In this document: one piece after another, positions 23,992-54,000 of the stretch
Layout: the number at the start of each line of letters is the position of its first letter
Numbering within the stretch: the first letter of the stretch is position 1
NCBI RefSeq assembly: GCF_000003815.2
Contig: NC_049992.1
Span: forward strand, 10,218,755-10,282,754
Direction of reading: 5' to 3'
Source: Branchiostoma floridae
Taxonomy: Eukaryota > Chordata > Leptocardii > Amphioxiformes > Branchiostomatidae
Length of the DNA stretch: 64,000 nucleotides
Made by a program: the position numbers and the translations under genes
The notes under the pieces: model-generated
Databases searched by the model: none
What the model was told of the DNA's origin: nothing
What the model saw: only the letters and a program-made list of their open reading frames with translations

Positions 23992-24058
23992 ATGATTATA
24001 AGGTGGTCGGTCCTTCTTCTAGCACTGCTGTGCGGTGTTCTAGCAGAGACAAGACAAG
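23992..24058 (+). CDS. Calsyntenin exon 1: signal peptide
   Basis: It encodes 22 residues, MIIRWSVLLLALLCGVLA followed by ETRQ: a basic start, a hydrophobic core and a small-residue cleavage site after Ala18. The donor is AAG|GTAAGC. The following intron is about 6.5 kb, the longest in the gene and the usual place for enhancers, but apart from the short foldback at 27996 I see no distinctive block in it. Confidence 0.9.
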
Positions 24059-27000
24059 GTAAGCGTGCCGTTTTGGGGTCGTTTCGGAGGGAAATTCTCG
24101 GGGGCTTCGGCATCAAGTATTGCAGAGAGATGAATGTCATTACGCAAATATGTGACTTCTCCGTCCAATTTTGATCCGACCAAACACGTATACCGCCTAA
24201 AACTGATAACAAATACAAGACTGATATATTCTGAGTATAAATTCTGGTAAAATTTGTCTATTTGGGTCCTAGAACGGGTGTATTTCGGACATTGGTGATG
24301 AACATTTTTGAGATGCGTGTGTTTCCACCTGAACAATTTCCTTGCCGTCCGTTCGATATGTGTCGGCCTGTGACCATAGCCTCTACAGCCTCACCCAGTG
24401 ATTTAGCTCGGATTTAGCACGCACACAATATACTGATGAACAATTTCTGTGGATGAGAAATCAGCGTGGAAGGAACAAAGTCCTGTTTGTGGCGTGGAGA
24501 GTGTAATCTTTGCGTAATCTTTTCGCACCTGGACACCCGACACTGCGCCTGTCTTGGGCAATTTTTGCAGCCCGTCAAGAAATTCCTCCCTCGAACCAAT
24601 CCTCGCTCTAACAAATCAATACTTCTTCGATGTACTACTTCTGTCTGATAAGAAATTCTGCATCAGATCATGTTGTAGTTTGAAATTTAGTAGTTTTGCG
24701 GTATTTATCCTTGTTCGTTTTTTTGACATGGGTCAAGTAGAAAAGAAAACAATTTGCAAACAAAGGAATTGTGGTATGCCAGGCTAATTTGTTGTAAGAT
24801 CCATTTTTTTAATGCTATGATAAAATGTTTATGTGTTGGCTTTTTTTAATTGTTTCTTAACAGTTTACCTATAATCTTACTACAAATTTCCCTTTTCTAT
24901 ATTTTTTTGGTTACACGGGTAATTTTGGATGAGTAATGTGATTTCTCGTGGTTTTCCCCAGACTCAAAGGAAGTGTGTGGGTGACCATGTAAAGTCTAGT
25001 TCTATGCCCAAAATTGGGAAGTAACATTTTGGGTACGTCAATACATAATTGTCCCTCCATAGGTGTTGTTCACCAAGCCCAATGAAATTAAAAAATATCT
25101 CTGTATAATCGTCAGAGTTTAGCGAGATGATGAAGTAATTAAAAGTCAATGAGTTGTTGCTTAATCTTGTCCCATGTGATAACAAAGCTGTGCTTTACGC
25201 CAAAAAGTAGTTACTCAAGCAGCTGTGCTTTGATATGTCAAATTGCTAGATACACAACAATTACCTCAACATAAAACATATCTTGCTTGTCTACTTGTTT
25301 CAAAGTTGCCGTATTTTAAGTGGATTATGTTCATAGAAAGTTTCAGAATAATGTATTAGACAATATTCTGGATGGTTTGTTTAGCTGTTGGCTCTGGTGT
25401 CTAGAACACATCTTTTCGCCTTGTCCCACATATATCAAATGTACCCCTGTCAAGTTCCCAGTGTGTGGGCACAGTCCTGCTAGGTTCAAAACCATGCACG
25501 TAATGGCATCTAAATAGCTTCATGAAAAACATCTGAGGACCTGGATAAAAACATCATGTCACCAAGGTAATATTTTCATTTTTGTTGTGTTTTTTTTGCT
25601 GATTAGAACTGTTTTTTTTTGTGTGTACTCATTCAACATGACTTTTTTAGATACCAGGTCAGAAAAACCAACATGCAATGCATAAATGTTTTATTTCTGT
25701 TGTGTAAAGCCCTGTCATCCTACACTTGGATATACAGATGAAAAATTCTAGGTGTATTTATGTGAATTTTATTCAAATTTGGTACTTTTGTTGTGGAAAA
25801 TTATGTGTATTAAAGGGTCTGTAATATCTGTTTTCAATTTATACCCAGGAAGCCATCTGTCAAAGATGTTCCCTATCTAGTTCTGTATTAGCCAAGCAGA
25901 ACAAGGGCCCCTCAGGGAGATACACCTGGTAGAGACATTGATGTGGCTGATCCATGCTAAATTGGCAGTAATTTATCATTTAGGTTACTCATGAAGGCAA
26001 TGTGTAATGGAAACATACATGGCCGCACTGCGTCATTATTGAAGAACAAAATAGTCTGCAAAGCACAACTGGTGATTACATTAGAGTAAAATGTCTAGAA
26101 GGCATTGACTTCACTATAAAGATTTATAGGAAAACGGTTGACCATTGATGTCAGCAGGACCCATTTGCCATATTTTACAATCACACAATGTTTTGTCCAA
26201 TTTCCAAAGTCAACCAAAAGAGTCCACCTGGCCATTATTGTAGAGAGCTGAATTTTTCAAGTGTTGTGACGAGTTGGACATGGATTTATAGCAGATTGTA
26301 CAAAAGTGGAAAGTTGTAGTGTGTTTATGGCATGAATATATGAGTGATAGTGCACAAATGTAGGCTACCAGGGTTCCCAGAAGCTGAACAGATGGCTTTG
26401 TTTTCCCTGGAGTTGTCCTGGCAAATTCTTATTGTCATTATCCAGTCAAGCTTAGGTAACCCCTGACCTTTAAATCACTGTGGTATGGTTTGGTCTTTTC
26501 CTCTCTTGTCTCTTCAGTATGGCAAAATCCGCTTTTATCTTAATGCAGATCAGGTTGGCATATTTTAGTTTTAGAAAGAAGAGAACCAGGGATTTTTTGA
26601 GAGGTCTTCAGTTACCCAGCCTGGATGCTCAACTAAAAGTCAATTTGTTGTGTGGCTAAGGGCATGTTAGGAGTAAACCTCAAAGACCTAGTGATTTAAC
26701 ATGCCTTGTTGGCACCTGGTGATGCTCACTGACTAGTTCCAGATGCAGTTTATAGTGCTTGCTTGTGTAGGGTTTGGTTTCTGATATATGTGCCCCACAG
26801 TCTTATTACAAAAGAAGCATTGTCTGAAGTGGATCCTGTTGAGCACAGTCTTCTTAAGTGTTTCCCAGGCCTCCGGGTGGCATCTTTTAACTAGTCTCAG
26901 GAAGTGTCTTGTTGGTGAGAATCTGTGCATAGTCTCTAATCTTACACAAATTGAAGACATGTTCTTCTTGTTCTCATACAGTTGACCAACATCTAACTAC

Positions 27001-30000
27001 AGATGTTGTACAAAAGGGTGTTCGTGACTAGACGTCTTTATAGTATATTGGATAGCACACAGGACTTAGTTCACCATCTTCCATTGTACTAAGGTTTCTT
27101 TAGAATCCCATTATCATGTGAAGTAGAGTAAATCTCCTAATAAAAGCAGGATTTAGCCAGTCATCTTTTCATATGTCCAGAGGGAATTTGATATGGAAAC
27201 CTTAAGAGCTAGAAAAACAAATAACAAGGACAGTGGATTATAGTCTTGATGGATTGTGTCTATTTTTTTTAAATCAAATGTAGTGAATATCAAAATACAG
27301 GCAAAAATGTAGTTTTTTGATGGACAGTTGACTGATGCATGTCTCCATGCACCTGTGTTCTTCATGGACATTTTGGCTCAGCTCGAGTCAGTGCAGTGCA
27401 AACAGTGAACATTTGCTTGGTCAGGGCTTCTTTTGTTGGTGGTTGTTTTGCTCGCCCTCTGTGGAGTAGAGGTTGTTTGCCAGAGTGATTGCATCACCAT
27501 GCCCACATTAGGGCAATACTGTAAAACCCTTTATTTGGTCTGGGTAAATTTGGCATAATTATACTGTAGGTGTAACTTTTACAGTAGCTGGTAGGGAGTG
27601 ATTTGCTGTGAAGTCAGAAATTGATTCATGGAATTTCATTTCTTTAACAGTATTCCTAGGAACTAAAAAGAGTTTATATAATTATAGTTAGTGTATAATT
27701 GCTCTGATATGCAGGTTGATTGATTGACCTTTGGAGTAGCTTTGTTGTATACGTGGTGTCGGGTTTCTCCAGTCAGCACAGTGAGGTGTTTAGCTGTTTG
27801 CATGATTGGTCATTGGCATTTCTTATTTTTTGGCAGGCAAGTTTTTGTTGTTGTAAACTAGTTGTAGGCTTTAAGTTTTAGCTGTGATGTCATCCTTTTG
27901 TATGCTATAACCAATAGTTCGCTTGTAACTCTACATGTAATAGTACTTCGCCATTAATATACCATGTAACACTATGGAATTGTAACAGGAACATGTAGCC
28001 TGGTTACCAGACCCCAGTCCGATTGGAAAAAAATATCTATAGACATTTTTGAGGTTGGGGTCTGGTATCCTGGCTAAGGAACATGCAAATAAAGATCATC
28101 AAATATCTTTACTTATGCTTGTTCATAAATGTTGTATGCTTTCTTCTTAGTGGGTCTTGTGAAAAAGAATGGTCCATGAGAGCTCATGGTGTAATCAGAT
28201 TTTCTGTAGGAATTGTGTTGTCGAAGTTCAAATGAAGACAAAGTGCTCCAGCTCACACAATCAGATGCTACTTCAGAGCGAGCCTGTGTGTTAATGCCAT
28301 GTGGCGGTTGACCAGTTTCGTGATTTAGATTCAATACATTCTATGGAGACCAGCTGCCAGGCTGCGAAAGGCCGTGGCTTTTATTCACATCATGTCTGTA
28401 TGGTTTTTGTTTCTTAACTATATTGCATGGCCCATGGCAAAGCCTTTTCCATAACAATGGATCCAATTGGCCGGAATATGTTTAAAAACGATGTAACTTG
28501 ACGCAGAAAAGTTCGCACACAGACCATGGGAATGTGAAATTGTACTCGTGGCACGTAGGTAGGAGGCATTTTTTAAATGGATTGCGTAAAATTTCAACCG
28601 CAGGACGTGTCTATTAGGAATGCATGGTAGGGAGCAACCAGTAGTGGTCAATTACGGAAACCGTTCTTTGTTATTTTCCTAATGTGTGTAGCACACGTCT
28701 ACAGCTGCGTCCGTTGTAGTTATTATGTTCTGTATTGTCCCTAGATACAAGAGCCGTAATTCCTGACAATTATTATGGATAACGTTGTAATGGATAGAAT
28801 TTTAAAATGGTACAGATATTTGCAACTCATAAAGCAAACGTTAATAACATGTTACATTTAATGAGGAATGATTAAAAAAGATTTCTAAAATATAGCTAGA
28901 CAAATTCATGTGTGTCAAGTTTTGATCAACTTATTATTTTTTAGTGTTCACCCAATATTTCATTTGTTTATTCTTCTCACTTACTTGATTTGTCATATAT
29001 ATTATCTGGAGGGAAAAGTAGACTTGTATATTTTTTTTAACAAAGTACTGTTGGAATGGTGTGGTACAAGTCTACGGAGCTGAAAAAATAGTGATCTTGA
29101 TTCAAAAATGAAAAGTAACTGGTGAAGTTGGCTAGAAATGCACATCATTCTGTTTTTAGTAAGTTATGCGGTCCATTATCCAGAAAAAACATTTACCTCC
29201 TTGCCAAGGACAAGTTTAGATCTATTTGTCCTTGCTGGCGACCTTTGAAGACATGCAGAATTCTTGACATGAAGAAGACTTCAGTTGATTCTTTTGTCAC
29301 TTAGGCCGTTTGCCGCCAGTTCAACCAGCCTAAGTGACATACTTCTCTTGCTTTGCTACTTTTAGTCCATTTAAGAAAGAAAACAGTAATATGCAGTGAC
29401 AGTTCCATGGTGTCCTTTTCAGTAAACAAGTTTCTCCACTCAGGTGTTTAGCCACGTCACAATATCAGGTAGTTGCCCAAATAGACACCAATGAAAGGTG
29501 TACAGCAGTAGACTGTTTATGTTAGAAGTGGAATGGGGATGAAGTTGCACCCTGGTAGGAACACCTGAGGTAAGGTTAACCCACAGGTCATGGTACATAC
29601 AGAACTTCAAAGTGCCTCAGGGTACAGCTGAAACAACAGGCACCAGCACACCCAGACTTTCTTAGCAAAACCATTTTACATGGCTTATGGTGTTTGTTAA
29701 TGGCAGTCCATTTAGTCAGAAATGTCAAATGTAGTCTAACAGAATAGAAAATTGTGTCATAGAACGTTGACGTCATTCCGTGAATTAGGCTGTTATGCAG
29801 CACAAGTATCAAAGGTCTAGTTCTGAATCAATAGAGGCTAGGAAGGACAATGCTACCATGGATAAAGTGGCCATCTGTTCAGTCTAATAGGCTGTACCTC
29901 TTAAGTTCAGGTCGCATGGTCACGATTTTTCTGTCATAAATTTGATGTGTAGATCCAGCTTCGCTACCTGCCTCATTCATCTCTACTTGAGCCTGGCAAT

Positions 30001-33000
30001 ATTTTAACACGAAAGAGACATGTTTGGATGATGAAAAAATACTGAAAAATGTTGATCTTCTACAAAATTTTTACGTCCTGGCTAGTGTAGTGGAAAGTCT
30101 AGAAGGCGAAGTATAATGCAGCTTGCAATGCAGTACACACTGCTGCGGCCTAAGTTATTGATCAGTAATCTTGGCCTTTGGACAAAGTAGACAAGGCAGT
30201 CACGGGGCCTTCATGTATGACGTACATTGCAACATGTCTAACCCCCAGTCCTAGGTGATACAAATGGCATGCATTGATTTGTACCAAGAGTATCATATCA
30301 GAAAGAATGCAGGGTTATTGATTTTTAGAGGCATTAAAGGGAGGTCGGCAAGGCAAAAATTAGTGTGTTACTCTTGCGTGAGCAGTTCACAGGACAGATG
30401 AATTTTTAATTTGCTGACATTTTGAGTTCAACCGATGTTTAGGATGAAAAATGATCTGATGCTCTAAATTGTAATCAGTGCCCAGGACTAACTGTTTGAA
30501 TTCTCTATTGTAACAGATGGGAGGACCTGGGAGGATGATGTTGACAAGATTGGTACCAAAAAGCTGGACGACTCAACTGAAGAAGATGACAGTGATAAGT
30601 ACTGGAAAGAGACCAAGTCAAGCGAGGAGGATGATAAAGGTAAGAAAATAAACTCGTGCTTACATTGCTAAAAATTTGTTACAGATTTGATAAAGTTTGA
30701 AGCTAACGTTTTGTGCCAATGAATTAATTTGTCCATCCATTCTGTATGTGTTATGATTTTTATTAAATTTAAACTTACTTTATTCAGTGTTCTCACCAGG
30801 ATTTTTGCACAGTGAAACAAAGTCACGTGATGAGCGATGTAGATGTGAGCAATGTGATTGGTTTGGAGGAATCCTCCCCCTGAAAATTTTTGAATTTAAA
30901 ACCATCAGAAACACCTCTGCATTATGAGGGCTAAATTTTACCTTTGTTACAAGACAATCCTTTGTAGTCCCCTTCATAGGGGCCAAAATCACAGCATAGG
31001 GGCCTGCTATGCTGAAAAGGCCTGTCGAGAACACTGAATCATGCAGCTGTTAGCATGGTTATTTTTTTGGATAAGTAAGAGTCTTGTGTGGTACTAGCAT
31101 TGAGTGATGATGACTGGCTGAGGAGCCAGCTAGACCAGCAGAGGTGGGAACAGCAGGCCAGCGGGCGCGCAGCACAGCGCCTGGCACAAGATGTCTGGCA
31201 GCCTCTCACATTCGACCGCCCTCCAAAACCTTTGGACTTGTTTCCAAAACAACAGAGCAATTCTAATAGTGAGTTAAAGATGGAAGTGTACTACTGGTGA
31301 TGGTAGTATTCAGAGTTGGTGGTAGTGTAGAAAAAGCTTGGAAAAAAAAGAACTATCCATCTTTCTTTCTCTTATGAGTCTCCTATGGTGTTTTCTCAAA
31401 ATGATTCTCCACATTCATGGTGACCGGTAATACTAGTGTTAGGGTGATAGATACTAGGGGAGGAATGCGTGGGAAAGATTGTTTGCTGTGGCTCCACTTC
31501 TAAAGGTATGCTTGATTTGAAAGCATGTCTGTGTACCCTATTCAAGTAGAACTAATTGTGGGATCAACTAGTAGGTACGCATACTGTTTCCAGTAGATGT
31601 TTTTGTGTCTTACGCATATCTATCTGCGCTTCCAGATGGAAACAAGCACAAGCCATGGCTAGAGATTGAAGATGGGCAAATCTTCCACGGGCTCATCAAC
31701 GAGAACGACATGAGCATGGTGGAGCTGCACCCCAAACTGAAGGCTTCAGATAAGGACTCTGGAGATGCTGGTAAGTCATCATAGCTGGAGTTAAGTCTTT
31801 GTAAAATCTTTGTATCAACTTAGAACAAAAAGGCCATCTGTGTTATTTAACAACAGCAACCTAGTTGTAAGCTTGGAGAGAAGAGCAACAAAATGTAAAC
31901 ATGGGTTTTGTCGGAGAGTTGAAAACAACGGCCTGTTATTATGTGTACCACAAAGATGATGACCTGGTCAGGCAGGTGTTGGAACTCAGCAATCAAATTG
32001 TTTTGAATAATAGGTTCTGCTTCGTAATGCTGCAAAGCCAGTCTGGTTTCTCTTTTGTAACAAAGACTACCATACCTACAGAGATAGCTGACTGCTAGTT
32101 TGGTATGGTAATTTGCCATGTTTGTGGAGACTGCCTAGAGGGATGGGAACCTGTGTCTATTGTTATTCAATAGGACACGATGTGCCGTGAGGCATTTTGT
32201 CCTATATTGTGTAGATAAAGCAACCTGTCATAATGGGTAGCCCTTTTTTTGTAAACACATAGTTGTTCACACAGGAGCTACAAAAGATTTTTTTTGAACA
32301 CATTTGTACGCACAGGAACTACAAAAGATTTTTTGAACACAAAGTATAAATGCAGAAATGTTTGCGGTGGTTTTATCTTCATGGTTTTCACAAGTTAGTC
32401 ATAATGCAAACTTAAAACCACATCAACTATTTTTCCATTACAGTATNNNNNNNNNNNNNNNNNNNNNNNNNNNNNNNNNNNNNNNNNNNNNNNNNNNNNN
32501 NNNNNNNNNNNNNNNNNNNNNNNNNNNNNNNNNNNNNNNNNNNNNNAACAGAAACAACCACGAACACTCCACTTTCCTGCTAATACGAAATTAAATCCCC
32601 GCGAACTTAAATGTATTTACAGTAGTTGTATGCACAAGAGCTACAAAAGATGTTTTCATGTTCTAATTAATCGCCTGTGTCTTGCTCCAGGTAAGATCTG
32701 CCAGTTTAGGATCACGCAGCAGGACGTGCCCTTCGATGCATTCGTGCTGAACCCCAACACCGGCGAGGGGTACATCCGTGCCCGCAAGGAGCTGAACTGT
32801 GAGGACAAGAAGGAGTACACCTTCACCATCCAGGCGTTGGACTGTGGTGTCCCTGAGAAGGGCATCCAGCAGAAGAAGTCCCACAAGTAAGTCCTTTAGC
32901 ACTTTTCACAAGGCAGTGGTGATTTACCTGTTATTCCCAAAGGTTATTACAGTTTGTGGTGGTTTTTCTATTATTCCCATGGGGTAGAAAATATCACAGC

Positions 33001-36000
33001 TTTTGTTGGTAGAGGATGTCATCAACAATTTGTGGATTTGATAAGAATAAGTCTCTAAATCAACTGTTTCTTCCTCCAGGGCTACTGTCCGCATCCAGGT
33101 GAACGATGTGAACGAACACGGCCCAGAGTTCACGGCCAGCGGGTACGAGGCCACCGTGATGGAAGGGAAGATGTACGACAACATCCTGAAGGTGGAGGCC
33201 GAGGACCGCGACTGCTCGCCCGGCTTCAGCCAGATCTGCAGCTACGAGATTGTCACTCCCAACGTGCCCTTCCAGATCTCTGAGGTAGGTATCCAGCAAT
33301 TCGCAGCTAAGATGCAAAAGCTCTCTCCAACAAGATTTCTCCAGTGTCCAGTTGCTTGAGTATCCAGTTGCTTGAGGAACTGCTTTGGGGCGTATCTAAC
33401 ACTTCTTTGCAGCCCCAAAGGAGTATTTTGTGTTTACCAATAGTGGTATTTGCATTCGATGTACTTGATGTAAAGTTTTCATATCAGGCACATTTGATAG
33501 CTTTATGTTAATCTTTAGTGGTGTGTCAGTTTACATTTGCATTTCAACCTTGCAACCACAGTACTTAGAATTGAGAACTTAGAATCAAGAACTCAGAATT
33601 GAGAATCGAGAACTCAGAATTGAGAACTTGGAATTGAAAACTAAAATGTTTCTCTTCTTTCAGGATGGCATCATCAGCAACACCGAGCCCCTGCAGTACG
33701 TTGACGGCCACAACTACATCCTGACGGTCACCGCCTACGACTGCGGCCAGAGGCGCGCCGACCTGGACGTCCTGGTGACCATCACGGTCAAGGAGCAGTG
33801 CCACCCCGGCTGGAAGGACTTCCAGAAGCGTATCGAGTACGAGCCGTTCAGCGGCACCAAGGCGCTCCTGCCCAAGGTGTACCTGGAGACGTGTGGGGAG
33901 GAGGTGTCTGACATCACCACCACCTTCACCCTGGAGACCAGCCACATCGGCAAGGGCTGCGACCGTGACACCTACTCCTCCAGCTCTCTACTCAAGCTCT
34001 GTGGTAAGAGTTTGGGTTTACTGGGAGGCCCTTTAGCTCAGATTGAGCTAATCTTCCAGGGCTCATACAATAAAAAAACTTTCAAAAGTTGCATGTTCAA
34101 GATCAGGAGTAGACGGCAGGTTTTGGACAACATCAAACTTGTGATACTGAAAACTACCAGTTGTGAATGCGAGGAATTCTAAAAATCTCAGTTAAATTTG
34201 TTAATGATGAAAAACACAGTCTTAATGTGTAACCATACTTAACTCAGATCTTGTTTTTTTACAAAGGTGCATCCCAGGGTAGCATTGACCTCCTCCCTGC
34301 CCCCGGCCTGGGGAGCGAGTGGACACAGAACCTGCCCACGGACGAGGGGCACGAGGGAGACCAGGTCTTCTCCTTCGACGGGCGCCAGACCGGCGTAGAG
34401 ATCCCCGAGGGCGTGGTTCCCAAGAACCTGACCAACCAGTTCACCATCGCTACCTGGATGAAGCACCGTGAGACCTTTGGAGGAGACAAGGAGACAATCC
34501 TCTGCAAGTCTGACAAGAAAGGTGAGGCCACTATCTTAGTTATGCTGAAAATAGAGATGTTTCACTGAGAGGGTTAATTGTAGCCAAATCATAGTAAATA
34601 TACCTACCTACCTAGTCCCTTGACCTCCAGGTTGTTGGGAGGACAAGGTGGATTCAAAGACAGAGCTGTCTCCAGGCTCCTCTTTCCCTGGCCAGAGTTA
34701 GTCTTTCTGGCGGGCTGAGGGATTAGCAATGCTTTTCTATAGGGGATATACTTGCACTGTTGCACAGAAGAGCCATCTAGCAACTTGTAACAAAACTGCA
34801 AATTTTCTTTCCATGACAAACATTTCAACTGACAGTCCAGAAAACAGGCAAACAGTGTTCATTTTGTGCTAGTGGAAATTGCATGGAAGATTCCAGCACA
34901 CAGTCTGTAAGAGCTACATGCTAATACTAGTCTCTTTCTTGTCTGGTATTTAGAGCTGAACCGCCACCACTACTCCCTGTATGTGCACAACTGCAAGCTG
35001 ATGTTCCTGCTGCGTCACGATGGCGGTGATCTGGAGACCTTCCGCCCTGCAGAATTCCACTGGAAGATCCCACAGGTACTTTCATCTATGTTGCTTTGTT
35101 GGTGTTGTGAGCTCAGAATAGTTAGCATTCATGTTGTAAGTATTGCACAGAGCCACATGGAAGTGCGGTGTGAAGACTATCCGACTGCTGCCTTCCCCTG
35201 TGTCAGGGATCAGTATAATGGATACTAGTACTACTACTATACTGCCAATAGAAGAACTACAAAAGTCAACAAATGTGTTCCTTCTGCAGGTTTGTGACAA
35301 GCAGTGGCATCACTACGCCATCACTGTGGACTTCCCAGAAGTCAACCTGTACGTGGACGGCATCCCGTACAGCCCCTTCCTGGTCACCGATGACTGGCCA
35401 CTCCATCCCAGCAAGTTTGACACCCGCCTGACTCTTGGTGCATGCTGGCAGGGTAAGTACTGGCTATAGGAATTAATTGAAAGAGACACTGGTCTCATGT
35501 CTTGGACTGCCTTGGTGAACACTATTAAGGTCAATAAGGTATTGGTAGAACTGAATCTCTATTTATCCAGATTGATTTGGAAGGACAGTAATGATAGAAA
35601 TGTTTTTTTAAGATTTTAAGCTGTAGGTTTCTCGATTTTGTTGCCAAGGGTTACTTGATATATTTGACAGCAAACAATCTTGGTACTTATTGATTCTGAT
35701 GAAGATGACAATGATAGTTGAAAAAATGGTCTGTTTACACCTTATTGGTTGTTGGAAGAAAGTTAAGCACTGTGCTATGATTACTACCAAGAGCTTCCAA
35801 GATGATCTCGGTACAGGTTGCAGTTTTTTTACAATACCATTATTGTGTTGTCCTGTTTCTAGGTGGTGACCAAGAGATGTCTCAGTACTTCCGTGGCGAG
35901 CTGGCTGGCTTGCTTATCCACCCCGGGAAGACGGAGACCCGCCGCGTCATCAGCTGTCTCCACAACTGCAACGAGAGCCTGGAGTTCCACTCCTTTGACG

Positions 36001-39000
36001 AGACCGGCCCTGGTTCGGAGGTAACCTGCATGGTTCATCTCTCTGGAGATTGGATGGAGGGGGGATAGGCTTGACTAGTCGCTGCTGTCACTGCAACTTA
36101 CTTTGTATCTAAGCTTTAAAGCACAAGTTAGCAGCGCTAAGTTATGCAGCTTTCACCATACACTAGAGTCATTCCAGCCATGCTTTCACAACAGAAGCAC
36201 TGCATTAATGATGTCTCATTGCAGAAAGATGTATCACTTGCAGAAGTGCAACTAAGTATCAACACTACTGTTGGTGTTGCCAGCCCCATTTCAATGCTTT
36301 AAACTTGCCTTTACCTTGTGACTCCCACATTCCAAAACCCTGTCATACCTTATGCTTAACCTTACTTTCTAACATTCTCACCATGCTTCTTAAAACATCA
36401 AACTTACCTCATACCTAACTCTTCACATCTTCGTGGCTTTCACTCATTGCACCATGCCTTTACTAAACGCTTGGCAAGGATTGTGCAGTTTTTCTCAAGT
36501 ATTCTACTCTTAAGACTGTAAAAGTGAAAGAGTGTTAAGCTAAGCGCTGCATGCCCCAAGATAATGGTATCCAGCATCGTTGTAGCCTCTCTTGGAGGTG
36601 GACCTTAGTTATGTAAGTATAACAGGAGACAATGCATGGGCATGCTGAACAGTAAGTATTGCACCCAGTGAGTTTTTGTAAAGAATTCCTTGTTGGTGTT
36701 TGTGATGGTTGATAGTTGTTATGTGGCCACACTGTCTCTCCTCAGAGTAAGAGGACGAAGCGGGAGGAAAAGAGGGATAGTCTTTCCCCTGTACGTCTTT
36801 CCTTGCTGTCCTTAATTTTCTGATTTTCTGCATTATTTCCCATTCTGCCATGATCGCTATGTACAGCCTGACTGCATGAGACGTGTCCAGGTTGTGTTAC
36901 ATTGCTTCTGTTGTGTTAGGAATATGGCTGGAATGAAAGTTCTTGAAGGTTTTTGCCTGATTTTTCCCTACTTTCTATGATTTCTGTTACAACTTGCACT
37001 GTAGGTCTGCTATTTGCCATTTTCTTCACATTTCTTTCTTTTCTTGAATGTATCAAGTCTTAGAGAATCTCTAATGGCATATATTGTCTTCTTGTAATGT
37101 TGCTTAGGTCCACTTCAACCCTGATCAGACACAGCTCTTCCTGAGGGGCGAGTTTACCCCCAAGAACCCCGACAACGAGGCGTACACGCTGGATAAGTAC
37201 ACCAAGGTGCTGCAGAAGGTTGCGTACCAGAACGGGCGCCAGTTCCCCACCCCCGGCATGCGCGCTCTGAAGATCCACACCGAAGTCAAGTAAGTAGGAG
37301 CAGGGATACCTGGAACTTCTGGTTTTTGTTTCAGTCTAATCTGTGCTCTTTTTGTTGTGAAATTGTTGCCTCTCAAGATCCACACCGAAGTCAAGTAAGT
37401 AGGAATAGGGATGCAGGACAGTTTGTTTCGTTCATGTAGGTTAGACATCCAGCTAATGAGATAAGCCAAGAAGCAGTTACTCAAGCAGCTGGATATGATT
37501 TTGGAAATGGTCAGACGTTTCAGACAGCCATATGGTGTCTTTCCTCAGTGACACTGAAGTGATTCTGGAAAAACTGATCTTTTATACCCTAGTTTTTTGT
37601 TTCAGTCTACTCTTTTTGTTGTTGAATTGTCGCGTTTCCTTTCTCTGATCCTGACTGTTACACCATTCCCCCCACAGCTGCTTTGACGACGAGACTTGCA
37701 TCGAGGTTCCCGACGTGGACGCCTACGTCATGGTTCTCCACCCCGAGGAGCCGACCATCAACCTGAGCGGCACGGACCACCTGGCGCGGCGCGTGGCGGA
37801 GCTGGACCAGGGCGTGGCGCCCTTCCGTGACCTGCGCATCGTCAGCACCATCGTGAGGGATGTGGAGGAGGAGGAGGAGGAGGAACTGCAGGAGGGTACG
37901 GCCATGTCGCTGTGATACTACCTTGTATTGTAGTAATGATTGCTGTATGGGTAGGCAGTAGGGGTGGGTACCAGTACATCGTACAAAACCATTTTATCTT
38001 GTTGGACTGGTCCAGAAAAACTGGACCTGAAAAGATGCGGTAGACTGGATGTTGGACTGATTTGAAAATGAACATTATATGATCAGGCATTGACATTTTT
38101 GGGGGCTTGCTCGTCTAAGAAAATACCAAGAGCGAAGAAGAGTAGAGTTTATAGTAAAATCTCCCAAGTTTTACAGTCCACGTTCAGGTCCGCACCTGGA
38201 CCTGATCCTCTGGACCTGAACCAGACCTGGACCTTAATTTTCTGTACCAGTACCCACCCCTAGTAGGCAGCATTGCTTGGGATGTTTGCTGTTTGTGCTG
38301 TTTACTACTCTCATCATATCTGATTGGAAAAAGTTTTTTTAGAAGAAATGGCAGTACATAAAGTCAACATAACAGTCTGCATGTATACACTAATACTATA
38401 TAGCACCAATTTGGCATGACCAGTTGTTGTGAAAGCCTTACTCTTAAAAGTTGTATTTCCTTAGCGAGACCTTGGTAACATGTTAAATGCAAACATATGG
38501 TGGCATAAAAGCTTTTTTGAACTGTGCATGAAAGCAATGCTGGCGGACCTCAGTGGAAGATTACTCAAGAGGCTAGCAATGTTCAGTGGCATCGAACAAA
38601 CATAAGCTTGATCCTTAAAAAGTGAAGAAATGTGCAACAGTTTTTTTGTAATGGTATTATACTTGGTGTATCAAAATGTGAAAATCATACAATAAGTAGT
38701 TTTTGTGGCACCCCTTTGTGTATATTGTACTCCGCCCTAAGTCGTGAAGTTTGCCCACCTAACTGAGCCTGTTTGTTCCGCGGATGCTTGCTTTGTCCAG
38801 AAGGCTCAGCGATGGCAGGTCAGTACGTGTCCACCCAACCCAGCAGCCTGCACCAAATCCTCACCGGCGCTTCAATGCCAAAACTTCCATCTTTTTGTCA
38901 TCATTTTTAAAGACCTGACAACTTTTTGCCGAGACGTTTTTATTTACACCCATCGAATGTCTTTCCTACGTGTTTTTTTGGAAGGTATTTATTGCAAACT

Positions 39001-42000
39001 TTGCATAGCCTGCCAAAAGGAGAAGATTAAAACATTTTTTACCATCAGAGCATGAAAGTTGAAGTTGAAGCTACCAACAGTTGGTACAATATTCCTCAGT
39101 CAGTGACACTTTCTGAAAGGAGCTATGTGTTTATGCCTTTCATAAAGTATCACTGATTGAAGAATATGCTATGAACTGTATTCATACATGACTGATGAAC
39201 CTCTTCAACCAAGCTACCAACCTTTTCAACAGGAAGCAAAGGTATCCTCATTTAACACAAACTGATTGTATTTCTCTTCTCCATTGCTAGGTGGCACCAC
39301 CGAGGTGACCCCCATCAGCCATAACCTGGATGCGTGCCAGATCACCGTGGACCCTCCCCTGGAGTCTGGTAAGGAGGAACTGACTGTGCCCAAGGAAGAC
39401 CTGGCTCGTCTGCGCCTGGAGAAGTCTGCTGCTACCAATGGTCTAGTCATCAAGGGTACGTGTACTAGTTCGGACGTCTCTTTCAATCTATGTCTCTTGT
39501 TTAGCAGTTTTGATCAAGCTTTCCTTCTTGTAATTCGATTGTTAATTTTATTCACTTGTATGCTGATTTTGAATCTATGTATCAATTCAGCCTCTGGGCT
39601 GCCAGTGTTGCATTTTGGGAGAATGTCTTAATAAAACTGTTCATCAGAATTTGGTAATGTAGCCTTCTAAGCATGCACTGAAGACCTGAAAATCAGAAAT
39701 GAGTGTCAGCATCTTTTGGTAGCTTTCCTGTAAAAGAACTGTTGAAAACTTTCAAAAGTCATCCAGGCTTAATTAAAAGTCCATTTTTTGTGGTAGAAAA
39801 CTCTAAACTGTTGTAGAACCATAAATACAGTGTTTCTCCAGTTAAACAAAACCTTCCTTTCTCCAGGTGTTGACACCATCGCAAACTACGAGGACATCCT
39901 GCGCAAGGTTGTCTACCGCAACTCCAAGGCCGGGGACTACTTCGACCGCGTGCTGAAGCTGAAGTGCTCAGAGATGAACGGCCGCTATGAGAGCAACGAG
40001 TATGCTGTTGAAGTACGTATTAGCATTATATGATCTAAAGAGGCACTGTCTTGACATAGCTGTTTTTCTGTTGTTTGATAATAACAGAGACAAAGCTGTC
40101 TTACTTCTTTAGTAGTGACAAAGACATAGCTGTTTTTCTGTCACAAAGACATAGCTGTTTTCTGTTCTTTAGTAGTAAAAGAGACATAGCTGTTTTACTT
40201 CTTTAGTAGTGACATAGACATAGCTGTTTTACTCTTTTAGTAGTAACAGATACATAGCTGTTTTACTTCTTTAGTAGTAACAGACATCATATGGGTCCAA
40301 ATCACAGTATAGGGGATCCAAATCACAGTGTAGGGGGGATCCAAATCACAGTGTAGGGGGCCCCTATGCTGCAAAAGACCTAGGGAGAACACTGGTAATA
40401 GGTAGTGAATGAATGTGATTCTCCCATGTCCACAGCTGAAGGTCCTGCACACCCTGAACGTTGCCAACCCTGAGAGCCATGTGAAGGTGGCTGCAGCTGT
40501 AGCCCAGAACGTGCCCGCCCAGTTCATCCACTCCAAGGGTGTCCAGGAGGCAGCCGTGCCCCACCAGGTGCCGCAGGTGGTCGCCAGCTCCCAGTCTGCC
40601 AATGGTTAGTACCTCTGTCATGTATTCTATTCGGTATGCAGAGACCATTTGCTTACGTGGTTGGTCTCAGGCCCCATACTGTAGATTTTTCACATGGAGA
40701 AAGTAGTCCTTGGTCCTGTATTCTAATGTACACAGAGAGTACCTGCTTAGGTGTTTGCCACATCCTTTACGGTAGATTTACATGGAGAAAACAGTCTATT
40801 CCAAGTTAAATAGTGAAAACAAAAGTTAGCACAAACAGGGCTCGAAATACTTTTTTTCTGCGTACCTGCACTGGTGCAAGTAACATTTAAAATTACCTGC
40901 ACCAGACAAATTTTACCTGCACCACTCTGAATGTAGGGATCATACTAAAATTGTTTAGGAACCATTGCTATTTCTTTCTTTTATACTTTATAGGTGGTAA
41001 CAGTCAATGCAGCTACGAACAATCCACATGCACCGAAATTTATGTATAATACCCAGTACATGGACCAGTGCAGGTTAGGTACAGGTAGGCACCAGAAATA
41101 CCTGCACAGCTCCATTTTTACCTGCACTAACCTGCATATGCAGGTGTTATTTCGAGCCCTGACAAAGGAAAGTTTTTGTGCTAATTGATGATTGTGTTCC
41201 TTCTGCAGTTGTCACCTCCCTGGTGATCGTGATCTGCGTGGGCTTCCTCATCTTCATGATTGTGCTGGGCGTGTACCGCATCCGCGCCGCCAACCGGCGC
41301 AACATGGACTCGGAGTGGGACCAGGCGGGCGAGCCGCGCATGGAGTGGGACTCCTCCGATCTCACCATCACTGTCAACCCAATGGTGAGGCTCCTTACAT
41401 CTGCATTTTTGTAGGATCTACTTCTTGAGAGAATTCTTTGACTTTATCCAAGTTGCAACATAAACAATACAATATGGACACATAACCACATCAGGGATAA
41501 ACAAGTCCACTAGCCCTATTGTCCAGGGCAAGTGAAAGTGCTGTTCGGGCAAGTGCATGTCCTACCCCACTTGTCCGATCGGGCAAGTAAGATTTTTCCA
41601 TTGATTTTAGTGCAATTTTGATATACTTGTTACTTTTTACAGTCATGACATCAAGCAATTGTCTACAGAGAATTCCATTGCTGGAAGTGAAAATGCATAT
41701 ACTAGTAACAGTGACATTTGAATTTTGGGCAAGTGAAAAATTGGTTCGGGCAAGTACATTTTTTATGTGCTTGCCCGATAGGACAAGTGGATTTTAGAAA
41801 ACTTGTTCAACCCTGCACATACATACATATAGAGTACAAAACAAAAATTGAACAAATATCAGTAGAATAAAATAGTTGATACATTTAAAGTCAATTGCAG
41901 CTGGAGCATATACATATGCTAAGAATTAGGCAGTGGCACAGCTGGAAGTAAATCTTTAGTAGTCACATACTCTTGTACTGTGTTGGAAAGTTTACTATTG

Positions 42001-42470
42001 GTAACTAGGTCATGGTCAGGTGAATCCTGGAACAGTAAAGAAACGGTGAATTCTTTCTCTGTGTTAGAAATACAGCTTGAAAATAGTAACAAGGAGGACT
42101 GTGGCTAGTGCAAATTCTTGAGTGAGGGTTTTCCCTGATTTTGATTGTGTGTGTGTTTCTCTTTTACCCAGGATGTTGAGTATGAGGGCGCTGAGAGCGA
42201 CTCCTCTGACGATGATGATGACAGTGCGCATGATGACTCCGACAGCTCAGATGATGATGATGAGCCCCCAAGAGAGGTACACAATGGTTTCATGTGACAA
42301 TTTCATTTGAGCTGAAGTAGAAATAAAAGCATGTTATTCATGGTGGGTACTGTTGTAGGAAATGCATGTTGTGTGTACATCTGCATGTTTTAAGTTTGCA
42401 TGTTGCCCTTTTCTAGGTGCTGGGCTATGGGCAGGAGCTAGAGTGGGACAGCACTGCAATGGTGGCGTGA
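23992..42470 (+). CDS. Calsyntenin (alcadein), complete, 19 coding exons, 1049 aa
   Basis: Exons: 23992-24058, 30517-30639, 31098-31268, 31636-31770, 32691-32886, 33080-33284, 33664-34003, 34267-34521, 34954-35075, 35290-35452, 35863-36020, 37108-37289, 37678-37895, 39291-39455, 39867-40012, 40436-40604, 41209-41384, 42172-42276, 42417-42470. All phases agree (3150 nt). Residues 1-18 are a signal peptide; 23-120 an acidic insert; about 155-360 two cadherin repeats (QVNDVNEHGPEF and LKVEAEDRDCSPGF are landmarks); about 420-600 a laminin-G-like domain (RPAEFHWKIPQVCDKQWHHY); about 940-961 the membrane helix; then a cytoplasmic tail with WD motif EWDSS at W985, an Asp/Ser-rich stretch and a second WD motif at W1042. 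Vertebrate calsyntenins are type I neuronal and synaptic membrane proteins that bind kinesin light chain through these WD motifs. Human CLSTN1 is 981 aa; the excess is mostly the N-terminal insert. An alternative terminal exon lies at 42816-42863. Confidence 0.97.
27996..28076. repeat. 82-bp foldback element with TAGCCTGG ends
   Basis: It begins TAGCCTGGTTACCAGACCCC and ends GGGGTCTGGTATCCTGGCTA, a nearly perfect hairpin with a short AT-rich loop. It shares its terminal motif with 9941-10101. It lies in calsyntenin intron 1. Confidence 0.8.
30517..31268 (+). CDS. Calsyntenin exons 2-3: acidic N-terminal insert
   Basis: Exon 2 (30517-30639, 123 nt) and exon 3 (31098-31268, 171 nt) both begin and end in phase 1, so either can be skipped without a frameshift. 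Exon 2 is strongly acidic and Lys-rich (WEDDVDKIGTKKLDD, STEEDDSDKYWKE). Exon 3 is Gln/Arg/Pro-rich (DDDWLRSQLDQQRWEQQ, then FDRPPKPLDLFPKQQ). Vertebrate calsyntenins pass almost directly from the signal peptide to the HKPWLE segment, encoded here by exon 4, so this region of about 98 residues has no counterpart that I know of. Splice sites are good (TAACAG|AT, AAAG|GTAAGA, TACTAG|CA, AATA|GTGAGT). Confidence 0.8.
30784..31037. repeat. Foldback repeat in calsyntenin intron 2 (family also at 40291-40395)
   Basis: The ends TCAGTGTTCTCACC and GAGAACACTGA are inverted. Near the right end CATAGGGGCCAAAATCACAG and CATAGGGGCCTGCTATGCTG occur, matching the block at 40291-40395. It ends 60 bp before exon 3. 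Confidence 0.7.
32349..32624. repeat. MITE-like repeat, copy 2, enclosing an N gap
   Basis: In reverse orientation this matches 14062-14248 (TACTGTAAATACATTTAAGT, then TCGCGGGGATTTAATT read on the minus strand). The left end GCAGAAATGTTTGCGGTGG also matches. The N gap 32447-32546 lies inside it. It is flanked by near-duplicate host sequence (CTACAAAAGATTTTTTGAAC on the left, CTACAAAAGATGTTTTCATG on the right), so it sits within a local tandem duplication. It ends 66 bp before exon 5. Confidence 0.7.
32447..32546. other. Assembly gap (100 N)
   Basis: Exactly 100 undetermined bases inside a repeat in calsyntenin intron 4. No coding sequence is lost, because exons 4 and 5 join in frame. Confidence 0.99.
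33563..33642 (+). repeat. Short tandem repeat next to the exon 7 acceptor
   Basis: Degenerate copies of an 8- to 15-base unit GAATTGAGAACT / GAATCAAGAACTCA, about six copies. The array ends about 20 bases before the exon 7 acceptor (33662-33663). Only a short TTTCTCTTCTTTCAG tract separates them. Confidence 0.8.
37270..37412 (+). repeat. Tandem duplication copying the exon 12 splice donor
   Basis: The sequence AAGATCCACACCGAAGTCAA followed by GTAAGTAGGA occurs at 37270 (end of exon 12 plus its donor) and again 105 bases downstream at 37375. A TTTTTGTTTCAGTCTA block lies between the copies and recurs near 37592. The first copy must be the functional donor, because reading through gives AAG TAA at once. 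Confidence 0.85.
37959..38263. repeat. Foldback MITE with TAGGGGTGGGTACC ends
   Basis: The left end TAGGGGTGGGTACCAGTAC and the right end GTACCAGTACCCACCCCTA are perfect inverted repeats. GGACCTGAA/TTCAGGTCC-type blocks pair inside. A full relative lies at 58815-58990 and a half copy at 5551-5630. It lies in calsyntenin intron 13. Confidence 0.9.
40050..40286 (+). repeat. Degenerate minisatellite, unit about 34-48 bp
   Basis: Tandem copies of GACATAGCTGTTTTACTTCT followed by TTAGTAGTAACA, about six copies with indels. It lies in calsyntenin intron 15, directly left of the 40291 repeat. Confidence 0.85.
40291..40395. repeat. Partial foldback repeat with triplicated segment
   Basis: Three tandem copies of ATCCAAATCACAGTGTAGGGG (degenerate), then GGCCCCTATGCTG and GGGAGAACACTGG. 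It matches the right half of 30784-31037. It ends 40 bases before exon 16 (40436). Confidence 0.7.
40836..41161. repeat. Foldback MITE just before the transmembrane exon
   Basis: It begins CAGGGCTCGAAATA and ends TATTTCGAGCCCTG, perfect 13- to 14-bp inverted termini, with ACAAA on both flanks as a possible target duplication. The interior carries many TACCTGCAC / GTGCAGG units in both orientations. It ends 47 bases before calsyntenin exon 17. Confidence 0.85.
41209..41384 (+). CDS. Calsyntenin exon 17: membrane helix and first WD motif
   Basis: It encodes residues 939-997. A hydrophobic helix (LVIVICVGFLIFMIVLGV) is followed by a basic stop-transfer segment (YRIRAANRR), and then RMEWDSSDLTITVNPM. 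This last segment corresponds to the first kinesin-light-chain-binding WD motif of vertebrate calsyntenin-1 (EMDWDDSALTITVNPM), the most conserved part of the tail. The helix orientation agrees with a type I protein. Confidence 0.95.
41492..41815. repeat. Foldback MITE built of GGGCAAGTG units
   Basis: The termini CAGGGATAAACAAGT and ACTTGTTCAACCCTG are inverted. The interior has GGGCAAGTGAAA and its complements CACTTGCCC/CACTTGTCC in both arms. It lies in calsyntenin intron 17. Like 40836-41161 it starts with CAGGG. Confidence 0.8.
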
Positions 42471-42815
42471 ACCAACCTTGCCACATGATTCACATGAAAT
42501 CCTACAATCATACCTAGATGAGATGCAACAGATACAAGACAGTGTTTCTCATGAAAACAACATTTTCATGCCCGTGGTTTCTGTGCCATGGACATGAACT
42601 TGTTCTTAACAAAGACAACACCAAAATGCATCTTGGCTTTGGTAGTGTAAAAAGATTTTGATACATGACCAAAAATGTAAAAAGGGGAAGTCAGACAGAC
42701 AGTTTGGGAAACATGCCGAGAAACACAGTCGAGTATTTGTCTGAACTACTGTTCTCTTTCATGATCACGAATTATTGATTGAATTAATGAGAAATGATGA
42801 ATTATCCAATGGCAG

Positions 42816-42863
42816 GGCCGTGATTCACAGCTGGAGTGGGATAACTCAACACTGAGCTTCTAA
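42816..42863 (+). CDS. Alternative calsyntenin terminal exon (second C-terminal tail)
   Basis: After an AG at 42814-42815 the frame set by exon 18 (phase 0) reads GRDSQLEWDNSTLSF and stops at 42861-42863. Vertebrate calsyntenin-1 ends QQQLEWDDSTLSY, so this segment is closer to the vertebrate C-terminus than exon 19, which ends GQELEWDSTAMVA. Splicing exon 18 to 42816 would give a 1047-aa isoform. The pyrimidine tract before this AG is weak (TGAATTATCCAATGGCAG), whereas that before exon 19 is strong. So it may be a minor isoform, or a degenerating duplicate kept within the 3' UTR. No AATAAA lies between the two stops, so both forms probably share the downstream end. Confidence 0.65.
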   Translation, partial: GRDSQLEWDNSTLSF

Positions 42864-44206
42864 GAGACCAACAGCTGGCTGAGCTGTCCGGAGAGAGAGA
42901 AGGAGAGACAGCGGGAGGGAGAAGACTTAGTATGAAGAAGTGACGATTTCTGATCGGAAGAATCTGTGTATAAATTACCGTACATAATGACATGCCCAAG
43001 ACCATCTCCTGATGACTGAAAAATTCACAAAGATGCACTCGCGCTGACTTTGCATGATCACTGGCACGCCTTCTACAAGACTTAAAACTTGAATGGTGGC
43101 AGATTGATGGATGTTTTACTGATGTTTGTAACAAAAAATTTACTTAAGTCATCTAGAAGTGATGCCCTTGTGTAATGTATACTTAAAGACCAAGTGATGT
43201 AAGATGTATGAAAGCAATAGTTGGCTAAGCAGTGTACTTTAAGACCGTAAGACTAAGGTAGCCCCCGTGACACTACGATCCTCGAAAGACATATCTATTT
43301 TGATGTGAGTGGTGTGACTATTAGCTTTATGATCATAATGATAGCTTTGCATGATGTAAATGATGAAATCATGATAACAGGAAAATCTAGATTGTGCAGT
43401 GGGAGGGGGGCATTTTAAGACAAAGGGTGTTACTTCAAGTAGATGATATCTGTATAAGGAGATGTTCCTGGGCATATTTCTATAGAGAAAATAGGGTGTA
43501 CATGTATACAAATCAGGATTGGGTATAAGATTATTAACGTAACTACAGCTAAGTTTGTCCGTAGTCAATATTGGATGTATTATGTGATGAAAAAAAATGA
43601 TGCTCATTCCTAACTTAATCGTATATGCATATGGAACTGGTGTGAAGCTTAAGAATACATATCTGCGCAGTTGTATGAAGACGAACAAAATACTGAATGT
43701 GTAGCTAGTTGCAACACTGTAGAGTTTTGTAATCCACCTTTTAGGGATCGGGATATAGGGTTGCACTTGCTGAATTGATTTTATTGCGTTTTAATATTAG
43801 TGTGAGTGGAAGCATGTTGTGCTGTCTTTAAACAAGGGTTATAAGGTTGTTGTGATTGTATCAGTTTTGTTCCAATTTTTTTTGTATTCCTGTCTGCTTT
43901 GCCTCCTCATCAAATTATTTGTCCTGCACTGTTTTGATAAGAAAAAGAGAGGGATGTATAATTTGTCATACCATAGAAAAATACTGTTGGAAAGATGCAA
44001 AAGGTTAAGATACAACAAGATACAAGACTTAACGTCTCCTGAACATTCCTGTATATGTAGAAGCACTTAAGGAACAGCTGAACGTATTCCCTGTGTAAAT
44101 CTCTTCACATTTCTCCAGGCTTTCATCTTGGCAGGATAACATCTAAATGTACTTATACTTACCTACCCTTTCAGGTTTGTAAGAATCTGGACTGTGTTGT
44201 ACTGTC

Positions 44207-44212
44207 AATAAA
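44207..44212 (+). terminator. Probable calsyntenin polyadenylation signal
   Basis: AATAAA followed about 35 bases later by a T/GT-rich element (TTTGTGTGTGTTGC), the normal arrangement of an animal poly(A) site. Confidence 0.6.
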
Positions 44213-51025: not shown

Positions 51026-54000
51026 TCACATCACGTCCACGAAGAATTCACACGGGTTGCCCATGGCCATGCGGAAGGACTGTCTGCTCCCGCTGAGGTC
51101 GGCCGGCATGGCTGCTAGCTGGCCAGGTTTTGGAGGGAGGGGAGGGGGGAGCGGTGGGAGAGGGGGGAGGCTTCTCTCGCTGGGGGCTCGACTTCGCTTG
51201 CTGGTGCTGTCGGATTCACTTCCACTTCCGCCTGACTTATTGCCTCCATCTCCTTTAGTGCTTCTCTTTCCACTTCGGTTGGATCCGCTGCTTCCTGCGT
51301 GAAACAACGAAACACGTTAATCTTCGCCGCGGTCGTGTCACTGAGAGCAATCTGACACCAGAGATGAATCTTAAGTTTCTTAACAAACGGCAAACTGTGA
51401 CTTCTACCTACGTTTAGTGAAACTAAAGACAGGTGCAGTGGTCATTACTACATATCTTACATTAGCAATAACTTACAAGGTGAATTCTATACTAAGCAGT
51501 GCGTCCTTCCTGTTTAGTGAGGTTACATCTATCAGGAGTGTTTACTATTTGTGACTTTAAGAGTGTACAAGGGTGCAACTGAAACGTGGTGCATACTACA
51601 TCTAGAGGCAGCTGTTATGTGAGAAAGATGCAAGTTAGCCAGCCACAGCTATGCAAAATTAGTTGAACACAATGTACACGTAAATGTAATGAAAACATTA
51701 GAAGAAATGCCTATGTCACACAAAAGAACAAAACGTCATGGATAATACAGGTCAAATGATGAAGCAAAGGAGCACTAAAGGCTAGAAGAAGTAACACAAC
51801 ATTAGAAACAGAGGGTATAAGGCATGAAAACACAGACATTTTGTGAAAAGAATGGTTTAAACACACAAAGATGCAGAAACTAAGAGAAGTAACACACAAA
51901 GACGCTGATTAGGCAACAAGCATCACCTGACCACAAGACTACTGGTCAAAGGCGACAGTCTCTTTACTTTTTACAAATTCATCTCTGGCTCTTTTGCTTA
52001 TCTCTTATTTTCACAAAATTCTCCAATTGTAAAAACTAGAAAAAAATAAGGAAACAAAATCAACAATATGGCTGCCAAGCCTTTTAACATACGGTTGCGT
52101 ATTCAAGGATCCATCATGCATCTGACACACGATATAAACATCGTTCAATATGCGAGCGGCCCCATGGTCAGGATACGCATACGTGCGGCCCACCATGCAT
52201 TACTACTGACCGTGCGAAGCATGCATTAGACAAGGAAAGTGCAAACCATGCAAGTGAGGAAGTTTTCGTACATCATTAGGTTTGAAGGTAACGAAGGTGG
52301 GAGTGGGTCTCTTACAACACTGCTCCTCTAAAGCATGGGTGCAGACAGAGAGAACAGACGTTATTGTCAGACAGTGCAAGACAAGCATGGTTCTCCCCTC
52401 ACTGCGCAACCTGCTGCAACACCCCATCCTTCACCATCAAACAATGCATCAACTTTGAAAACAATCAGGTAGCTATGGAAACTTCCAAAGAGGGGCCATG
52501 ACTTGAAAAAGGTTGTATTATATTCATGGCCCCCCTTTTGTACACAATGTTGGTTACATCTTCTGCAACAAATGTAAAGGCTTCTGACTATTACACTGCT
52601 TCTGGAGGGGTGTGCAGGTTGGAATGCTCAGATTGTGGGAGATAGTAAAAGATGAGAACAAGTACAAGGCAACAACGCATTCACAAGCGAAAAAACAAGC
52701 AATTCTGCACCATGGAGTAAACATTCCACAAAGTAGTAAGGGGCACAGGGGTTCAATCAGCGTACTTCCAACGTTTTTTAGAAGCAACTTCTCTTCAAAA
52801 GCCATTGTCCCATTCCATGTCATTTCCATAATATTCAGACTGGTAAATGAAAGCTGTTCACTGTGGAAAATGTTGGCTGCTTTAATAAGTATGACCAGGT
52901 CACAAATCAGCAAGCTGACAAGATCCTGGTGTGTAATTTCTTTTTTTTTTTTAATTGGGTTTTCAAATAAACAAAAACATACTAACTTGGGGAACCATCC
53001 AACAGAATGATAATAATAGTACAAATTGAATACCTGAAGATTTGTGTACAATTCTTTGTACATGTACTTGCAATTGAGATCTGAATCAATGATAAACCAG
53101 TTGCATCCTTGTCAAGTCAGGATTTAACACACGCTTGTCATCTCTAAACAGTGTTATTTTGGACACCCTCTAACGGACCAACATTTTCCCAGTTTGGCTA
53201 AACAGCTGCAGTAGGCAAACACGCCAGATGCACGGAGCAAGCGAAAACCGGGGGAAAGAAGGAAGGATTTGCCTGGCAAACAGAGCGACCTGATTCTAGT
53301 GAGTGCGAGCCAGGGTCCACCGAGATGCACGTGTCTGGAAGAAATCAGACAAGCCAGAGAAGTTGGTGTTAGAAAAAACTCCCAGGCTCGACAGTCCCCA
53401 GGAATGGCTGCTCCAGGTAGCAATGTTCCCACCAGATGAAAGTTCAACTCACACGTTTGGGTTGGCCCGTTAAGGAAGGTGGCAGACTGTTGACACGAAG
53501 GCAAGGGAGGCTGGTCAAGAAGGAGTAACATGCTGAGGCAGCGGCCTTATCTTTCAGGACGTTACCATTCTTTGTCATCGACGTCTGAAATTTGGATAAC
53601 CCTACAGGAAAATTTCTCTGTCATTGACTAGAATTTCTACTTGCCTTTCTTTCATCAAATGTCCAGCACCATCAATCTGCCCCATTGTTATAGGAATAGC
53701 AAAGGTTTGTTGGTTTGAAATAAAAAAAAAGCCCAGCTCCCAAAGAAAAACCTCTTTTTCATGCACTTTTTATTGCCTATGTGAAGAGACCACCACCTTC
53801 CTTAAGAGCGCCGCTGAAAAAACTTCAACCAGACACATGGTCCTTTATTTTTCCAGAATTTCTAGACCAAGGCTTGCTGAGGAATGATTCACTAAAGCAA
53901 TTAATACAAAGGTAAGAAATCACCATGGGCTATTCACACAACATAACCAATTGCAAATGTCATTCAAAACTCCAAAATGTTGGAAGGTATCTTTAAAGCC

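Follow-up and report, generated by a model that had tools for sequence, protein, structure and literature searches.

Two candidate C-terminal tails at competing 3′ splice sites in a lancelet calsyntenin gene

The window analysed here is a stretch of 64,000 nucleotides from the lancelet Branchiostoma floridae (NC_049992.1), and the region described below is, judging from its predicted protein, the 3′-terminal part of a calsyntenin gene, in which we identified two candidate C-terminal tails behind a single donor. In a predicted model, whose exon limits were placed by eye at GT/AG signals bounding open reading frames, sixteen upstream coding exons span 23992 to 42276 and together give an uninterrupted frame of 934 codons. 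The tail is therefore exon 17 of this model and not exon 19, as it had first been numbered. The calsyntenin identity assigned in the original prediction was borne out by Pfam matches of the predicted protein, all above the cut-offs, to PF00028 Cadherin (two stretches), PF13385 Laminin_G_3 and PF19699 CLSTN_C, the last with an E-value of 6.4e-98 in the protein carrying the distal tail. Vertebrate calsyntenin-1 is composed of Cadherin, LNS-type and CLSTN_C domains, and the lancelet protein is alike in this respect. A single hydrophobic segment, VIVICVGFLIFMIVLGVY, is the transmembrane candidate (judged by eye), and the cytoplasmic part features two WD motifs: WD1 (MEWDSS), and a C-terminal motif that reads LEWDST in the proximal tail or LEWDNS in the distal one.

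The last common coding exon is 105 nt long with a partial codon at neither end, and it is followed by two in-phase acceptors after one donor, which is an alternative 3′ splice site layout (Table 1). The coordinates, phases and residues given for both tails in the original prediction, as well as the 345-nt gap between them, were all as claimed. Three joins are in frame: from 42276 to the proximal tail, from 42276 to the distal tail, and a tandem join running through 42461. The proximal tail is directly preceded by TTTTCTAG, and its motif, LEWD-STAMVA, has one residue fewer after WD than the distal tail, which is itself directly preceded by GGCAG. Two additional in-phase AGs in the distal segment (exon starts 42831 and 42837) also keep the tail open, and the start at 42831 alone retains the full LEWD. 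A genome search with 42172–42870 returned this locus as its sole match, with no second allele or paralogue from that search, and the tails found no match among Protein Data Bank sequences. Pfam was considered as an arbiter between the tails and rejected: the CLSTN_C match spans the transmembrane/WD1 exon plus the first codons of the following exon, equally in the three isoforms, and covers residues 3–60 of the test proteins, which is the transmembrane and WD1 part only, with near-equal bit scores (74.5 for the proximal, 74.1 for the distal and 73.7 for the tandem form) that do not separate the tails.

Table 1. Features of the 3′ part of the calsyntenin gene, in window coordinates (a slash marks the cut at a donor)
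Feature	Position	Strand	Basis
Transmembrane + WD1 exon (…EPRMEWDSSDLTITVNPM), shared by every isoform	41209..41384	+	CLSTN_C match; phase stays open in the model of 16 exons
Final coding exon before the tails, encoding the acidic linker DVEYEGAESDSS…EPPRE	42172..42276	+	donor GAGAG/GTACAC
Three TGCATG (Rbfox-type) sites, at most 54 nt upstream of the proximal exon	42363, 42382, 42397 (42363..42402)	+	motif scan
Proximal acceptor AG, strong polypyrimidine tract	42415..42416	+	score 10.8
Proximal tail VLGYGQELEWDSTAMVA, then stop	42417..42470	+	open frame
Possible weak donor CAATG/GTGGCG, cut after 42461, would put both WD motifs in tandem	42461..42462	+	score −1.5
Spacer, 3′ UTR (untranslated region) if the proximal acceptor is used or intron if the distal one is	42471..42815	+	sole genome match is itself
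Distal acceptor AG, very weak context	42814..42815	+	score −6.2, pyrimidine fraction 0.42
Distal tail GRDSQLEWDNSTLSF, then stop; ancestral-type WD2 tail	42816..42863	+	9/11 residue match; unique pattern
Purine-rich tract past the distal stop, candidate exonic splicing enhancer	42886..42930	+	purine content
AATAAA, likely poly(A) signal common to both ends	44207..44212	+	sequence

The distal tail closely resembles the published end of calsyntenin-1. The CSTN-WD2 peptide of that protein is printed as NATRQLEWDDSTLSY-COOH, ending QLEWDDSTLSY (PMC6224480), and the distal core QLEWDNSTLSF is identical to these last 11 residues at nine positions. A degenerate DNA pattern for this core, CARYTNGARTGGGAYRAYWSNACNYTN, matched once in 513 Mb searched on both strands, at the distal tail itself, whereas the reversed-pattern control gave no match in the same 513 Mb. 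Given this residue match and the uniqueness of the pattern in the genome, the distal segment is most simply taken as the inherited calsyntenin tail, beyond chance, and the claim that it is the better fit to the published WD2 tail holds. The WD consensus for kinesin-1 binding is reported as L/M-E/D-W-D-D-S (PMC2829069). Five of its six positions agree in WD1 and in the distal LEWDNS, four in the proximal LEWDST and all six in the published calsyntenin-1 motifs. Both segments resemble genuine calsyntenin tails with W-acidic motifs.

How the two tails arose is a separate matter. It had been proposed that they could represent a duplicated terminal exon, and this proposal is weakened, as the DNA likeness is marginal and does not extend beyond a CACTG word and the codons for LEWD. 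Comparison of the coding parts was equalled by 50 of 5000 shuffles; over a wider region, the likeness was reached by 95 of 2000 shuffles and, among 1969 real segments of the gene, by 85. Descent by exon duplication is thus possible. A transposon insertion between the tails was rejected: the spacer matches the genome only at itself, and the similar strings at its ends are at chance level (1,230 of 5,000 shuffles).

Splice sites were scored with a human-type donor matrix and with an acceptor model trained on a small set, 14 of the 15 acceptors upstream (all but the one of exon 2). Only 0.9% of the gene's 1,379 AGs score as high as the proximal acceptor. The donor at 42276, which the spliced isoforms require, scores −0.8 and is the weakest among the model's 16 donors. 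The top-scoring GT within 42271–42815 (42342, score 3.8) appears unused and lies past an in-frame stop. AATAAA and ATTAAA are both absent between 42323 and 44206, and therefore the two ends probably share the poly(A) signal at 44207, the layout being a single terminal exon with alternative 3′ splice sites and not two polyadenylated exons. The choice between acceptors at 42416 and 42815 put forward in the original prediction agrees with such a layout, in which the two 3′ splice sites compete. Beyond the distal stop, the purine-rich tract could plausibly enhance use of the weak distal acceptor: only 22 of the window's 62,546 40-mers are that purine-rich, and three of them lie at 42886–42930.

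The intron after 42276 has features of its own. If it is retained, the frame ends PPREVHNGFM with a stop at 42297, and an intronic AATAAA is located at 42322, behind the gene's weakest donor (region 42277–42327). A third tail lacking WD2 is possible through intronic polyadenylation in this region.

The TGCATG sites upstream of the proximal exon form the sole cluster of three within 60 nt among the 37 such sites on the + strand of the window. The − strand contains 32 sites with one cluster of this kind, at 52199–52252, outside the calsyntenin gene. The 20 control loci, 361,496 bases with both strands counted, contained 131 TGCATG sites and no triple cluster. When any four-letter hexamer was allowed, 36 of 6,239 overlapping 60-mers of the window and 79 of 17,913 control 60-mers contained one three times, a rate close to half a percent, regardless of the hexamer concerned. 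Binding of Rbfox upstream of an exon usually represses that exon. More generally, UGCAUG is the Rbfox site, and bound Rbfox is reported to lead to exon retention or skipping depending on the side on which it binds (PMC8742874). Judged from the motif pattern, the cluster at the proximal acceptor supports, as an independent line of evidence, a regulated choice of tail.

The sequences, phases, uniqueness, splice-site scores and motif cluster described above were established directly, and from them we infer the use of both junctions, Rbfox control and an effect on motor binding. The reading towards which we lean, with modest confidence, is that lancelet calsyntenin would have two alternative C-termini generated from two 3′ splice sites in one terminal exon, with a shared poly(A) signal, the proximal site as the default and an Rbfox-type switch. 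In this scheme, the strong proximal acceptor would be used by default and would yield the tail with the shortened WD2 motif LEWD-STAMVA. An Rbfox protein seated on the three TGCATG sites would cover the branch-point and pyrimidine region and block this acceptor, such repression being the most likely switch. With the proximal acceptor unused, splicing would move to the weak distal acceptor, aided by the downstream purine-rich tract, and would restore the ancestral tail QLEWDNSTLSF. Since WD1 is kept in both isoforms, the switch would be expected to tune binding of the kinesin-1 light chain (KLC) and not to abolish it. In alcadein alpha, both WD motifs are reported to associate with KLC1, and replacement of both tryptophans abolishes binding (PMC3414480). 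The expected effect in lancelet is therefore on how strongly motor recruitment occurs or how it is regulated, and not on its presence or absence. The more specific proposal, that an Rbfox-type factor in lancelet makes the calsyntenin C-terminus alternate between two kinesin-binding tails, one ancestral and one derived, and so tunes motor recruitment by cell type through splicing of the very motif that binds the motor, is tentative and, in our judgement, doubtful.

A number of observations count against the two-tail reading. The distal acceptor score is matched by 39.9% of the 1,379 AGs in the gene, falls under all 14 training acceptors (lowest leave-one-out value −1.8) and is exceeded by six AGs within 42418–42900. 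The acceptor model behind these values is small, and the donor scores come from a human-type matrix. The site is weak enough for its disuse to be a real alternative. The TGCATG cluster was spotted first and tested afterwards, and the motif is denser on the + strand of the window (0.59 per kb) than in the controls (0.36 per kb). For alternative micro-exons, moreover, enrichment of the Rbfox motif has been reported on the downstream and not the upstream side (PMC4317164). Finally, a profile search with PF12414 for a lancelet Rbfox gave nothing, and the control genomes were equally empty, so this search is uninformative.

The weakness of the distal acceptor beside its strong proximal neighbour, together with the six better AGs, is what would be expected if the distal tail were a recent relic, replaced by the proximal exon, with a decayed acceptor and a segment that now serves only as 3′ UTR. 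We regard this as unlikely, though deserving serious consideration, because an intact in-phase frame with nine of 11 residues should not last long without selection, and because the candidate enhancer tract and the repressor-type motif cluster are placed where a switch would need them. In the opposite arrangement, the distal tail would be the only functional end and the proximal acceptor rarely used or spurious. The closer agreement of the distal LEWDNS with the WD consensus (five positions as opposed to four for LEWDST) is in line with this, but the proximal acceptor ranks in the best 0.9% of AGs, and an in-phase ELEWDST close before a stop is by our estimate unlikely to occur by chance, which makes a distal-only gene highly improbable. 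Some transcripts might instead contain both motifs, with 42417–42461 acting as a 45-nt cassette exon and the protein reading …LEWDSTAMGRDSQLEWDNSTLSF. The original prediction had named a weak donor at 42461 for such a tandem variant. That donor is indeed weak and in frame; what qualifies the comparison is that the common 42276 donor is nearly as weak (−0.8 against −1.5). The tandem join is in frame, and 45 nt fits a micro-exon range of up to 51 nt (PMC4317164). However, a donor equalled by 18.9% of the gene's 1,405 GTs would have to work together with the weak distal acceptor, and the similar strings at the spacer ends are, as given above, no better than shuffles; we consider the cassette improbable.

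Base pairing of the tails with the intron that follows 42276 was also evaluated as a means of selecting the end. Docking and selector RNA pairing picks exons in some mutually exclusive exon sets. The segment 42277–42870 folds more stably than its shuffles (z −3.25, 0 of 100), and a helix joins 42300–42314 with 42828–42842 at pair probabilities of 0.87 to 1 within this segment. Nevertheless, the duplex energies are ordinary: with 1,000 shuffles of each, 353 introns and 242 tails equalled the value for the distal tail, as did 280 of 880 genomic segments, and the helix is mostly lost in a longer transcript (expected pairs 0.34). With the duplex at shuffle and genomic level and fading in the longer transcript, the pairing switch was rejected, and we give it almost no credence. 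The fold of 42277–42870 is unusual in itself: a 20-shuffle test gave z −4.49, and none of 26 control segments (eight from the window, the other 18 from the control loci, of which two out of 20 were dropped for N) was as low, the lowest control value being −3.17 in the neighbouring intron.

The layout of two WD motifs in lancelet calsyntenin, with a juxtamembrane WD1 and, in the distal form, a WD2 at the very end of the protein, is that of vertebrate calsyntenin-1 (alcadein alpha, CLSTN1). The papers covered describe no alternative C-terminus for the vertebrate protein: its two splice variants are described as differing by 10 extracellular residues (PMC3414480), and a further reported variant skips exon 11 (PMC10730894). 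C. elegans CASY-1 is likewise a calsyntenin with several isoforms (a, b and c) and an interaction with KLC-2, but these isoforms are reported to have one common C-terminus (PMC5864096), whereas in lancelet the C-terminus itself would vary. Among the reported splicing targets of RBFOX2 is human CLSTN1, where the exon concerned is a different one (numbered 10 or 11 depending on the paper; PMC10156590, PMC6086906). Loss of RBFOX2 is reported to increase skipping of this exon (PMC10156590), and in a second report its inclusion correlates with the motif in the following intron, the knockdown being unreadable for CLSTN1 (PMC6086906). Gene family and UGCAUG motif are thus the same in the two species (PMC6086906, PMC10156590). 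In the human gene, however, the motif is described downstream of the exon, in the following intron, and RBFOX2 is associated with inclusion, whereas the lancelet cluster lies upstream of the acceptor of a C-terminal exon. Both lancelet tails, whose binding is only predicted, further resemble the motif of W-acidic adaptors such as SKIP, a short stretch with a tryptophan flanked by D/E and often preceded by L/M that is read by the tetratricopeptide repeats (TPR) of KLC (PMC5450233); the available text of that source mentions no splice choice between two motif forms. In open-licence literature, covered by titles and abstract openings of mostly top-ranked records, we found no paper dedicated to alternative calsyntenin C-termini or to amphioxus calsyntenin.

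Calsyntenin links vesicles to kinesin-1 through its WD motifs. If the two-tail reading is correct, cargo–motor coupling would be set by a splice choice of the second motor-binding motif, and this would hold in the lineage that is sister to tunicates plus vertebrates. An annotation with the proximal exon alone would miss the ancestral tail and read the distal segment as 3′ UTR.

Further observations concern other parts of the gene. The WD1 exon reads MDSEWDQAGEPRMEWDSS at 41304–41357, a second tryptophan-acidic stretch whose tryptophan lies 10 residues before that of WD1. A lectin-like domain encoded within 34377–35359 matches PF07953 below threshold (20.6 bits, cut-off 23.8), with no sign of a toxin; this match presumably reflects a common jelly-roll fold. 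The intron before 42172 contains, between 41526 and 41755, five copies of GGGCAAGT (at 41526, 41547, 41581, 41727 and 41748), which are perhaps an old interspersed repeat.
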